The translations under genes were made by a program, and so were the position numbers. From positions 1 through 30,624 of IMG/VR virus record IMGVR_UViG_3300047550_000815: 30,624 bases of DNA. One strand, 5' to 3'. Source of the DNA: a virus. This document shows positions 1 through 30,624 of the stretch, one piece after another. The notes beneath the pieces are model-generated. The model saw nothing but the letters and a program-made list of their open reading frames with translations, searched no databases and was not told where the DNA came from. Position 1 is the first letter of the stretch. Each line of letters opens with the position of its first letter.

Positions 1-96
1 CTTGTCTTCGTACATCTTACGCATACGTTCCATTTTTGTTTGTAATGACCTATTTTGCTTTTCAAGGTCGTAGATTTTCTGATAAGGGTTTTCCAT
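1..96 (-). CDS. 5' part of the DnaA domain IV-like gene (cut by window edge)
   Basis: The ATG lies at 96-94 and the frame runs off the left edge after 32 codons. It encodes the charged N-terminal helical part of the protein given in full at 30034-30534, of which this is the duplicate end. The mom-like gene stops at 98, so one base separates the two genes. They are probably cotranscribed across the circle junction. Confidence 0.9.
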   Translation of the reverse strand, partial: MENPYQKIYDLEKQNRSLQTKMERMRKMYEDK

Positions 97-186
97 TTTA
101 AAATAATTTTGTTTGTGTTGTTGGTTGATAACTTGCATCATATCTTTTATTTTCACCTTTTGGATATGGTTCTAATTGATATGGTA
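1..186. repeat. Terminal direct repeat, left copy
   Basis: These bases recur at 30439-30624 with one mismatch: G at 111 against A at 30549. The repeat holds the 5' end of the DnaA-like gene and the 3' end of the mom-like gene. Joining the ends therefore makes both genes whole and continuous. A circular genome or a terminally redundant linear one explains this. The mismatch suggests a mixed population or a sequencing error rather than an exact packaged repeat. Confidence 0.95.
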
Positions 187-763
187 ATTCTTTCATCATT
201 TTCTTTTTATCTCGTTTATCTGCAATAAAATAAAAGTATCGATGTTTTCTTGGTCTTTCTTTCATATACAACTTATCTCCAAACTTTTGCTTTAACCATT
301 CTACCCTATTCTCTTGACCTCTTGACATATCAAATACACTTGCTCCGTGTAAATGTTCCATACCTTTAACCATATAATCCATAAATTTTGCAGATAATCC
401 CGTATAAATCCAATTAGTCGCTTGATAGATATACCCGTGATGATTTTGCGAAGTATCTGCATAAGATACTAATACACTTGGTTTGGGCAAAAATTTAAAA
501 GTTTGTGCAACAAAAAAAGATAATGTGTTTTTTGGTAAATTATCAGAAACAACTAAACGATTTAACTCATATAATTTATACGATGGAAATAATTCTCTTA
601 AAACTGAACTGACTGGAGTACCATAACTACATACTCCTATCAAAATATTATTATCATATAATCCAAAACAAAACTCAATAGGTGGTATTCTATGAGCATA
701 ATGCTTTTTTAAAAACCACTCTTTGCAATCTTGATAATCTATTGGTTTAACTTGGTAAATCAT
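98..763 (-). CDS. mom: Mom-like DNA adenine modification protein (GNAT fold)
   Basis: This 221-aa protein resembles the Mom family. Phage Mu Mom converts adenine to N6-methylcarbamoyl-adenine on phage DNA, hiding it from host restriction enzymes. The supporting region is residues 101-122, which begins YADTS and continues through HHG, IYQATNW and IYTG. This matches the conserved core I recall for Mom, with an ELNRLVV strand at 66-72 before it, as in GNAT folds. Length is close to Mu Mom (about 230 aa). The ATG at 763-761 overlaps the dnaB stop as ATGA, so it is translationally coupled to the replication genes. Mu mom is tightly controlled (by Com, Dam methylation and OxyR); nothing like com is visible here. 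The basic C-terminal half fits DNA binding. The modification chemistry in this phage is inferred. Residue 218 is Thr here and Ile in the right-end copy. Confidence 0.8.
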   Translation of the reverse strand: MIYQVKPIDYQDCKEWFLKKHYAHRIPPIEFCFGLYDNNILIGVCSYGTPVSSVLRELFPSYKLYELNRLVVSDNLPKNTLSFFVAQTFKFLPKPSVLVSYADTSQNHHGYIYQATNWIYTGLSAKFMDYMVKGMEHLHGASVFDMSRGQENRVEWLKQKFGDKLYMKERPRKHRYFYFIADKRDKKKMMKELPYQLEPYPKGENKRYDASYQPTTQTKLF

Positions 764-1992
764 TTTTCTCTGTAATATGTTCTACTTGGTATAAATTCAG
801 TTTCTATCATTCCTACCTCTCCGTGACGATTCTTTGCAACTATCAATTCGCTATCCTCAATGTCGAGTAATTGCCTATCGTAGTAGTTTTGTCGGAATGG
901 AAATAAGATAACGTCTGCATCTTGTTCTATACTTCCGCTCTCTCTAATATCGGATAACATCGGTCTTTTGTCTGCTCGTTCTTCACACTTCCGTGATAAC
1001 TGAGCCAATGCAATAACCGTGATGTCTAATTCTTTCGCTAATACTTTAAGGTTTCGGCTTATGTCGGATATCTCTTGCTCTCTGTTTTGTTTGTTGCCTT
1101 TGATTAATTGTAAATAGTCGATTACCAATATATCAAGTCCATACTTGGCTCTATGTATTTTTATCTTACTTTTAATTGTTTGTACATCAACGATTGCTTC
1201 ATCATCAATGAAAAATGTTATGTTATCAGAATTAATTGCATTTGCAAGTCCTGTAATTTCATAGTCATTTAAATTACCGCTTCTAATCTTATAATTTGCT
1301 ACATCGTGCAATAAACTCATATATCTTTTACCTATTTGCTCATTGCTCATCTCTAATGATAATAATAAACACTTTGCACCAAGTTTAGCAGCGTTACGAA
1401 TAAAGGTTAAAGCAATAGCCGTTTTACCTGAACCTGGTCTTCCTGCAATAATAACTAAATCAGATTTATTCCAACCACCTATTACTCCATCTAATTTATT
1501 CCAACCTGTTTGTAATCCACTTAATCTGTCACCTCGTTTTATTGCAATTTCCATTGTATCAAATGCAGTTCCAACAACTTTATTAATACTTATTGCATCT
1601 TTTGTAAATGTCATCATTGCTTCTTCTAAATACTGATTTAATTTAGTTGTTAACTCTGATAACTCCATTGATGAATTAATACTACTTATATTTGATAGTA
1701 AATCACGTTTCTTTGCGTTCTGCTGCAATAAAATAATATGACGCTCTATATTACTATCTCCATCGCATTTGTTGCTTAAAACGGCTAAATCGTGTGCATA
1801 TTGCATTCCTATTTCGTGACCTATCTCAAACAATCCAAACTCTTTGTTTTCAATGTAGAGTTTTGTCATTGCTATAATTATCTTTTGGTACAACGAATCT
1901 GTAAACCAATTGCTTTTTAATCTTGGCAAATACACATAGTTCTTAGTGTAAAATAAAAGATTACTAATAATATGTTGTTCTATGTTATTCAT
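760..1992 (-). CDS. dnaB: DnaB-family replicative helicase
   Basis: A 410-aa hexameric RecA-fold helicase that would unwind the phage replication fork. Walker A GRPGSGKT is at residues 184-191, a LSLEM segment is at 211-215, and Walker B (DILVIDYLQL) starts at 287. A conserved late motif with SDIRESGSIEQDAD is near 327-340. The N-terminal 130 residues are helical and match the DnaB N-domain poorly, as is common in phage versions. It is a little shorter than bacterial DnaB (about 450-500 aa). The ATG at 1992 shares a base with the upstream stop (TAATG), so it is coupled to the preceding replication protein, a plausible loader. The mom-like gene follows with an ATGA overlap. Confidence 0.95.
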   Translation of the reverse strand: MNNIEQHIISNLLFYTKNYVYLPRLKSNWFTDSLYQKIIIAMTKLYIENKEFGLFEIGHEIGMQYAHDLAVLSNKCDGDSNIERHIILLQQNAKKRDLLSNISSINSSMELSELTTKLNQYLEEAMMTFTKDAISINKVVGTAFDTMEIAIKRGDRLSGLQTGWNKLDGVIGGWNKSDLVIIAGRPGSGKTAIALTFIRNAAKLGAKCLLLSLEMSNEQIGKRYMSLLHDVANYKIRSGNLNDYEITGLANAINSDNITFFIDDEAIVDVQTIKSKIKIHRAKYGLDILVIDYLQLIKGNKQNREQEISDISRNLKVLAKELDITVIALAQLSRKCEERADKRPMLSDIRESGSIEQDADVILFPFRQNYYDRQLLDIEDSELIVAKNRHGEVGMIETEFIPSRTYYREK

Positions 1993-2612
1993 TAGAATAC
2001 TTTGTATTTAGGTTGTACTTGTGTTTGTATTGTACTATTTGCGTTTTGATTTTTCTTCCAGTTAATTACTGCTGATTCCCAACTCTTCATTTTATTTTTA
2101 CCTACCATCCAACCTTTAGATTCGTAGTAATGGTAAAAACGTTCTGAATCATCAATCATATTTTGTTTAAGCATTTCTATTCTTATTTCTTCAATTGTTG
2201 GTTTGATAAAACGTTTTGTTGGTTTATTATTACTATCACTCTTTTTATCATTAACACTATCACTTACACTATCACTTACACTATCACTTACACTAACACT
2301 ATCAGGTTTTTTGGGTTTTTCTAAAAAGGCTTGGGTTTCTTGGGTTTCTTTGGGTTTTGATGGTCTACCACCTTTACTTCCGTTAAGTTTCTGTTTATCA
2401 ATGTAATCCTCCCATCGTTGTAAATCTCTTTTTAAACATTGCTTAATGGGTTCAAAAGCGATATTGATAATTAAATCTTCGCTAATAGGGTTTTCGTCAT
2501 TCACATACTTGAATATGTGTTTGATTAGTTTACCTGCGTACTCATCAGGTAGTTGCTCAAATACGCCTTTTTGGTCAGCGTAGAGAATGAATGATTTTTT
2601 ATTTTTTGCCAT
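1992..2612 (-). CDS. DUF6291-like replication protein, candidate helicase loader
   Basis: This 206-aa protein has two parts. The first (about residues 1-85) begins with KKSFILYADQ, has a LPDEYAGKLIKHIF helix and ends in GSKGGRPSK, matching the DUF6291 family of Bacteroidota phages. The second (about 133-190) contains FYHYYESKGWMVG and SWESAVINWKK, a motif usual at the C-terminus of phage replication initiators and loaders. A low-complexity linker at 105-121 made of SDSV units joins them. It lies immediately upstream of dnaB with TAATG coupling, which suggests a helicase-loading role, inferred from position. Its ATG at 2612 follows a hairpin and seven U in the RNA (see 2613-2665), so expression is probably regulated at that leader. 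Confidence 0.75.
   Translation of the reverse strand: MAKNKKSFILYADQKGVFEQLPDEYAGKLIKHIFKYVNDENPISEDLIINIAFEPIKQCLKRDLQRWEDYIDKQKLNGSKGGRPSKPKETQETQAFLEKPKKPDSVSVSDSVSDSVSDSVNDKKSDSNNKPTKRFIKPTIEEIRIEMLKQNMIDDSERFYHYYESKGWMVGKNKMKSWESAVINWKKNQNANSTIQTQVQPKYKVF
2254..2289 (-). repeat. 12-bp tandem repeat inside the replication protein gene
   Basis: There are three perfect tandem copies of ACACTATCACTT on the plus strand, followed by a decayed copy to about 2303. On the coding strand each unit encodes Ser-Asp-Ser-Val, making a flexible acidic linker. The 12-nt period keeps the frame, so copy number can change by slippage without breaking the gene. Confidence 0.9.
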
Positions 2613-2665
2613 AAAAAAAGCCCATCAGATTTGAGGCGGTAAGAGCGCACACAAACCCAACAGGC
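2613..2665 (-). promoter_or_regulatory. Structured RNA leader: long hairpin plus U7 abutting a start codon
   Basis: On the minus strand, GCCTGTTGGGTTTG (2665-2652) pairs without interruption with CAAATCTGATGGGC (2633-2620), giving 14 pairs including six G-U wobbles. A further GCG/CGC helix lies inside. Seven U (2619-2613) follow at once, and the next base is the A of the ATG at 2612. The wobbles become A-C mismatches on the other strand, so the fold belongs to minus-strand RNA. It has the form of an intrinsic terminator or attenuator ending exactly at the start codon of the replication protein. Confidence 0.75.
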
Positions 2666-30033: not shown

Positions 30034-30534
30034 TCATAATATACCACTTCGGACTCGTTGTACAGAATGATTATTGACGTGTACAAGCCCTTTGTCACTA
30101 TTAAATCCCAATACCTCAAGGATGGTGGCGTAGTTTCTTTGGAGGATTTTGTCATATTCTAAGTAGTATTCGATTGTTTTACACGCGTGAATTACTGTTG
30201 TATGGTCTTTTATTAGTATTCTACCTATTGCAACTACTTTCATCCCGTAATGAAAGCGTAGTATATAACAGAACAAATGTCTTGGAGCGGTGTATTCCAT
30301 CTTACGGGAATTGCTTATTACCATTGCAGGAGTTACGTTATACACTTTGCATATTTCCGCTAATACAACTTCCCAATCTTCAAGTTTCTTCGTGTACTTA
30401 ATACGAGGGTTTAATATCTCGTGTCTTAGTTCTGCTAACTTGTCTTCGTACATCTTACGCATACGTTCCATTTTTGTTTGTAATGACCTATTTTGCTTTT
30501 CAAGGTCGTAGATTTTCTGATAAGGGTTTTCCAT
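30034..30534 (-). CDS. DnaA domain IV-like DNA-binding protein with coiled coil
   Basis: This 166-aa protein has a charged coiled-coil start (residues 1-45). A region similar to the DnaA C-terminal origin-binding domain follows: EVVLAEICKVYNVTPAMVISNSR (55-77), APRHLFCYILRFHYG, and the signature DHTTVIHA at 110-117. The ATPase domain of DnaA is absent. The DHTTV motif contacts DnaA boxes in bacterial proteins, so this could bind phage iterons and act as a replication initiator or decoy (inference). The ATG at 30534 is within the terminal repeat. The mom-like gene stops two bases before it on the circle. Confidence 0.85.
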   Translation of the reverse strand: MENPYQKIYDLEKQNRSLQTKMERMRKMYEDKLAELRHEILNPRIKYTKKLEDWEVVLAEICKVYNVTPAMVISNSRKMEYTAPRHLFCYILRFHYGMKVVAIGRILIKDHTTVIHACKTIEYYLEYDKILQRNYATILEVLGFNSDKGLVHVNNHSVQRVRSGIL

Positions 30535-30624
30535 TTTAAAATAATTTTATTTGTGTTGTTGGTTGATAACTTGCATCATATCTTTTATTTTCACCTTTTG
30601 GATATGGTTCTAATTGATATGGTA
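30439..30624. repeat. Terminal direct repeat, right copy
   Basis: This copy matches positions 1-186 apart from A at 30549 in place of G at 111. Reading into the left end at 187 continues the mom-like gene without a break. On the closed circle the repeat counts once, giving a genome of about 30,438 bp. Confidence 0.95.
30536..30624 (-). CDS. mom: 3' part of the mom-like gene (cut by window edge)
   Basis: This is the last 29 codons plus stop of the modification protein, whose complete copy is at 98-763. The single base difference at 30549 changes residue 218 from Thr (ACA) to Ile (ATA). It is a duplicated end, not a second gene. Confidence 0.9.
   Translation of the reverse strand, partial: PYQLEPYPKGENKRYDASYQPTTQIKLF

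Follow-up and report, generated by a model that had tools for sequence, protein, structure and literature searches.

To our knowledge, the examples of phage replication under RNA control come from just a handful of Proteobacteria phages. The systems that appear nearest in logic to the leader RNA described here are the CI RNA system of satellite phage P4, IsrK, and the c4 RNA of phages P1 and P7. In P4, the leader of the replication genes is subject to RNA-controlled premature termination (CI RNA, seqA-seqC), and the IsrK RNA of Gifsy-1 is related (PMC4825925). The c4 RNA acts at antirepressor genes (PMC12197685) and is represented by a motif in Rfam (PMC2864571). A search of the literature, incomplete in its coverage, found no description of the present leader. 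Rfam 15 covariance models run at the gathering threshold on the window (see below) and 26 related loci gave no match except a tRNA, which bears out the earlier note on this DNA, to which no named RNA family had come to mind. That search included the c4 consensus structure (RF01695), which had no match.

The window, meaning the whole stretch of 30,624 nt that was analysed, is a virus record of 30.6 kb whose genes, nearly all on the minus strand, make up a conventional phage complement that includes terminase, portal and DnaB helicase. A gap of 128 nt separates a small winged-helix ORF (2741-2941) from the DUF6291 gene (PF19808, 206 aa; 1992-2612, minus strand), and the next gene in the operon, also assigned by domain search, is a DnaB-type replicative helicase (760-1992, minus strand). 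The DUF6291 product had been called a replication protein in the earlier note. The helicase gene directly next to it points the same way, as does a PHROG hit, albeit weak, to a primosomal protein, but the ORF itself is just a Pfam DUF6291 and its role in replication stays putative. Directly after the helicase gene, and still in the replication operon, lies a Mom-like DNA modification gene (PF25680; 98-763, minus strand). The ORF at 30034-30534 (minus strand) carries a bacterial DnaA C-terminal DNA-binding domain (PF08299), and a DnaA protein is also annotated near the same operon in Cellulophaga phages phi13:2 and phi19:3. The first ORF of the window (1-156) repeats the N-terminal part of this DnaA_C-domain ORF (30470-30624); the record therefore probably ends in a direct repeat and is probably a complete or circularly permuted genome. 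GC skew, read for an origin, was negative throughout the window and uninformative. Scans for sigma-70 promoters and simple terminators stayed at background level and are likewise uninformative for this organism.

The leader occupies the gap upstream of DUF6291 and reads on the minus strand. It is preceded by the box TATATTTG (2713-2720), identified as promoter-type by its match to TAnnTTTG, the Bacteroidota -7 consensus. In most relatives the same box is found, 17-25 nt ahead of the first loop. The box of the window is overlapped by a perfect 10-bp inverted repeat, TATAGTATTT/AAATACTATA (2717-2745), which is operator-like; lying beside the winged-helix (HTH_39) ORF, it is a possible operator for that protein, and none was seen upstream of relatives such as L002-L006. 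The predicted RNA of roughly 95 nt starts near 2708, ends at 2613 and folds into two hairpins. Hairpin 1 (HP1; UUAACUGGAUU-loop-AAUCC-GAU-AGUUAA, 2676-2707) carries the loop GUAAGAG (K5, 2690-2696). An A-rich linker, AAAGAUAUUU (2666-2675), delimited from the extracted instances and similar to those of other subtypes (AAAG(R)AAUU/AAAUAUU), joins it to hairpin 2 (HP2, 2620-2665). The latter consists of a 14-bp terminator stem without interruption, GCCUGUUGGGUUUG/CAAAUCUGAUGGGC, and an inner helix of 3 bp (GCG/CGC) bearing the loop CUCUUAC (K3, 2639-2645). HP2 is followed at 2613-2619 by a U7 tract, the signature of an intrinsic terminator, which the AUG of the DUF6291 ORF abuts at 2612. Folding of 2600-2680 gives a minimum energy of -24 kcal/mol; shuffled versions average -14.4, and none of 200 does as well (z -3.5). 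Because 5 of its stem pairs are G-U, the hairpin is strand-specific. K5 (2696-2690) is the exact reverse complement of K3 (2645-2639), so that the two loops form a 7-nt match. The earlier note had described, from the letters alone, a strand-specific hairpin of 14 pairs with an inner helix, then U7 and AUG, and sequence and folding confirm each of these. Its element of 53 nt is real as a hairpin but makes up only the 3′ half of a two-hairpin element whose start lies near 2707, and its account passed over what proved to be the conserved core, the kissing of the HP1 loop with the HP2 loop. Further copies of the element were sought within the window and none was found.

Relatives were collected from the upstream regions of DUF6291 relatives in IMG/VR, GTDB genomes and cultured phages. 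A detector of the topology, in which the loop of a terminator hairpin is paired to a segment further 5′, returned approximately 65 nonredundant cases for which no or almost no shuffle was as good. An unbiased scan for promoter plus architecture, covering 148 loci and 646 kb on both strands with the strict TAnnTTTG box required, gave 66 matches on the gene strand versus 1 on the opposite strand. Seventy-six candidate leaders were extracted; without five dubious ones they present 46 distinct loop pairs, all complementary, and the automatic segmentation of some instances is wrong in detail (e.g. L076, L103, L104). The plan is shared whilst the letters differ, the loop pairs including GUAAGAG/CUCUUAC, GUAGCAG/CUGCUAC, GUCAGAU/AUCUGAC, GUAGAAG/CUUCUAC and CGUCUAAC/GUUAGACG. 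A covariance model of the window clade, run on 13 genomes or records behind other loci, found nothing, since the subtypes do not share a conserved sequence.

Among cultured phages, replication operons headed by the element occur in those of Cellulophaga, Flavobacterium, Olleya and Polaribacter. In Cellulophaga phi13:2 and phi19:3 about 20 nt separate it from the gene downstream. Where a small ORF precedes DUF6291 in cultured phages the element precedes that ORF and thus stays at the operon head, with offsets of -269 in elemo phage, -151 in phage 11b and -398 in Harreka, and placed by inspection in Muminvirus. When five other cultured Bacteroidota phages were scanned, the element turned up immediately ahead of the primosomal gene in Polaribacter P12002L and ahead of the antirepressor operon in Riemerella RAP44; shuffling the genomes three times yielded none. 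The background of this wider search (5 weaker opposite-strand matches, 3 in shuffles) makes single new matches less certain than the DUF6291 set.

Pairing is strongly conserved in the relatives, with many compensatory changes, where an absence of conserved pairing would have told against the earlier note. When 26 RNAs of the window clade are aligned on sequence alone, the covariation score, loop-loop helix included, is 0.585, compared with 0.192 for shuffles (0/500 as high) and at most 0.14 when slid, and 92% of cells are paired. Compensatory changes are present in every helix of the clade. The loop-loop helix shows two-sided compensatory changes at all 7 of its 7 pairs with 98.9% of cells paired, whilst the HP1 helices are 83-95% paired, also with two-sided changes. 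For a second subtype of 16 RNAs, unrelated in sequence, the score is 0.489 vs 0.206, and 6 of the 8 pairs between its loops show two-sided changes. Within the window clade, 14 of 111 alignment columns are invariant, mostly in stem and U-run. The HP2 internal loops, UGAA..GGAU or GAGUA..GAAA, are kept within subtypes, and the second of these resembles, as far as its letters go, a bulged-G motif.

The lengths of the connecting segments bear on whether the loops pair within one molecule. The K5-to-A5 link length scales with the A5-to-K3 distance (Pearson 0.59 for 74 instances, 0.68 for 39 unique pairs); the Spearman coefficient is weak (0.27-0.30), as lengths hardly differ among most members. Between the first loop and the terminator stem there are usually 19-27 nt if the second loop lies 16-23 nt into the hairpin; the link grows to 37-40 nt for a second loop at 38, and to 39-48 nt for one at 46-53. 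This scaling favours pairing within one molecule. ColE1 RNA I/RNA II likewise has two fully complementary 7-nt hairpin loops in a replication context that change together, but its loops sit on two RNAs of opposite strands, whereas here there is one strand and one RNA. The packaging RNA of phi29 offers another comparison, since this phage RNA too carries a pair of hairpin loops complementary to each other, which co-vary from one phage to another. By analogy, the present RNA might multimerise through intermolecular kissing and act as a scaffold, for which its two hairpins, with complementary loops that co-vary between phages, would be suitable. We consider this highly improbable, since architecture, position and packaging machinery all differ: the two-hairpin fold has no three-way junction, the window encodes a conventional large terminase rather than a phi29-type packaging ATPase, and the length scaling argues for intramolecular pairing.

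The same geometry bears on a second possibility, namely that the terminated RNA acts in trans, as P4 CI or P1/P7 c4 RNA does, in immunity or copy-number control. Its exposed loop would pair with the partner loop of the nascent leader of another genome copy and enforce termination, which would amount to sensing gene dosage, or superinfection by a relative whose loop is identical. The genetic position is that of P4, the leader of replication genes (PMC4825925), and that of c4, before antirepressors (PMC12197685). AntA/KilAC genes follow the element in RAP44, L185 and L208, whilst replication genes follow it elsewhere. Moreover, the RAP44-type relative L185 has two tandem long-range copies (1150-1670) upstream of its AntA/KilAC antirepressor gene, each with a 15-bp pairing, and their pairing sequences differ. 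Loop pairs also switch by coordinated multi-pair jumps between near-identical RNAs (L132/L133/L137, L126/L128, L002/L064, L083/L088), as expected of specificity determinants. However, both partners are in one RNA, with link lengths that suit pairing within the molecule; several carriers were isolated from plaques, lysogeny not being evident for most of them; and loops were not found to evolve faster than stems on average, showing only these occasional jumps. We therefore regard action in trans as plausible but doubtful.

As with P4 CI and IsrK, the RNA is the leader of a phage operon (replication in P4, antirepressor in IsrK), pairing inside the leader would be tied to premature termination, and one promoter is predicted to give both a small RNA and a read-through mRNA. 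The P4-type feature of a replication-gene leader with internal complementary segments is present. The differences from P4 CI are that here the partner is the loop of the intrinsic-terminator hairpin itself, so that two loops of one RNA pair, that promoters and phages are those of Bacteroidota, and that there is neither an Rfam match nor a sign of RNA processing. With c4 (RF01695) the leader shares loop-borne complementarity, a variable pairing sequence and, in some members, a place upstream of antirepressor genes; here, in contrast, both partners lie inside one terminator-bearing RNA and not at the ribosome-binding site of ant. Sharing position with these RNAs without matching Rfam, the leader is not filed as a P4 CI or c4 member.

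The features of an intrinsic terminator, a stable hairpin with a U-run directly after it, are present in the window and recur in most relatives. With no U-run required, a run of at least 4 U was found just after HP2 in 90% of 69 instances compared with 9% of background positions. Seven of the 69 lack one in this free scan, and for at least three of these (L067, L132, L133) the scan had taken the inner stem and U7 follows further on. In the window, where the AUG abuts U7, any transcript of DUF6291 has to cross HP2, save one started from a promoter within the hairpin. Contact between U-tract and AUG, which the earlier note had treated as a trait of the element, is limited to the window clade; in other subtypes the two are separated by approximately 10-27 nt, or the element lies 150-1,600 nt upstream of DUF6291. 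This spacing weighs against control of translation, in which the hairpin at the start codon would occlude the ribosome or, in some subtypes, a linker ORF through HP2 would couple translation to read-through. The AUG 7 nt after HP2 in the window clade would suit the former, and in L021, L103-L113 and L173 an AUG whose reading frame stays open across HP2 would suit the latter. The 10-27 nt gap applies to most other subtypes, most have no leader ORF, and the conserved U-run is not needed for occlusion, so that we judge translational control quite improbable. A leader peptide through HP2 was rejected as a general feature, as the frame is open in some subtypes (e.g. L103-L113, L173) and broken by stops in others. 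In L103-L113 the linker, about 200 nt ahead of DUF6291, contains a start codon from which a frame of about 30 codons crosses the terminator hairpin, a possible leader peptide of that subtype judging by its letters. A third copy of the loop before the AUG, considered as a translational switch, is not general either (one match vs 0.8 expected). In L021 (2880-3001) a direct repeat of the first loop plus flank, AAAUACCUACCA, stands immediately before the ATG of the gene, and the terminator loop could therefore pair with either copy. A similar case with a 7-nt loop copy was seen by eye in L031.

With attenuators and riboswitch leaders the element has in common a promoter, a structured leader, an intrinsic terminator and an operon; it differs in having no conserved aptamer-like core and no conserved antiterminator. 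The window RNA does contain a classical antiterminator, whose energy, as long as the 3′ arm has not emerged, is -16.6 to -18 kcal/mol versus -7.2 for HP1. Across 68 relatives, however, this fold is no better than in shuffles (mean z +0.22), a separate check of its conservation gave 71% paired, and no sensing or release mechanism is therefore visible. A riboswitch was rejected for want of a conserved ligand-binding core, 14 of 111 columns being invariant even within the window clade. Of the riboregulator or attenuator proposed in the earlier note, the terminator-bearing leader thus remains the best reading, given conserved pairing and no Rfam match, whilst the alternative fold, present in the window RNA, is not conserved.

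We therefore favour, with a probability of roughly 0.52, a self-contained leader of the replication operon with its own promoter and two loop-locked hairpins, the second an intrinsic terminator, that attenuates the operon. The promoter would produce an RNA of about 95 nt folding into two hairpins locked by loop-loop pairing. Most transcripts would stop at U7, probably releasing a compact small RNA, and the replication genes would receive only read-through, the element limiting or delaying their expression. From the sequence features we infer that termination occurs in vivo and that read-through is the control point. Loop-loop pairing may tune termination or the stability of the released RNA. 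In the fold, both loops are already able to pair before the 3′ arm of the terminator emerges, and the lock may thus speed or hinder terminator formation. The released RNA might instead be the point of the system, a stable phage small RNA acting elsewhere (on a host target, by binding protein, or as replication primer or R-loop), with read-through as leakage and the replication gene incidental. A self-contained transcription unit with promoter box and terminator, a nearly constant length, and HP2 internal loops conserved within subtypes in a manner compatible with protein binding would all fit. We consider it unlikely, however, as the element always heads replication or antirepressor operons in the loci read, is single-copy in the window, and in the window clade is tied to the gene by an ATG that abuts the terminator.

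The leader looks like an undescribed switch on phage replication, one whose architecture has been kept while evolution rewrote its sequence. One architecture recurs in dozens of distantly related Bacteroidota phages, metagenomic and cultured. Almost no sequence is conserved across subtypes, and homology searches such as Rfam therefore miss the element; covariation between hairpin loops, which searches for nested structure ignore, may thus be able to reveal hidden RNA families. For cultured phages, the leader raises the questions of whether the loop-loop lock in the terminator times the start of replication and whether the pairing code decides which phages can share a cell. More speculatively, it may be that these leaders form a widespread and undescribed class of Bacteroidota-phage RNA, in which a terminator loop is locked to the 5′ end and an exchangeable, phage-specific pairing code acts as a self-recognising brake on replication or antirepressor genes. 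If true, an RNA mechanism based on an intrinsic terminator would control superinfection or copy number.
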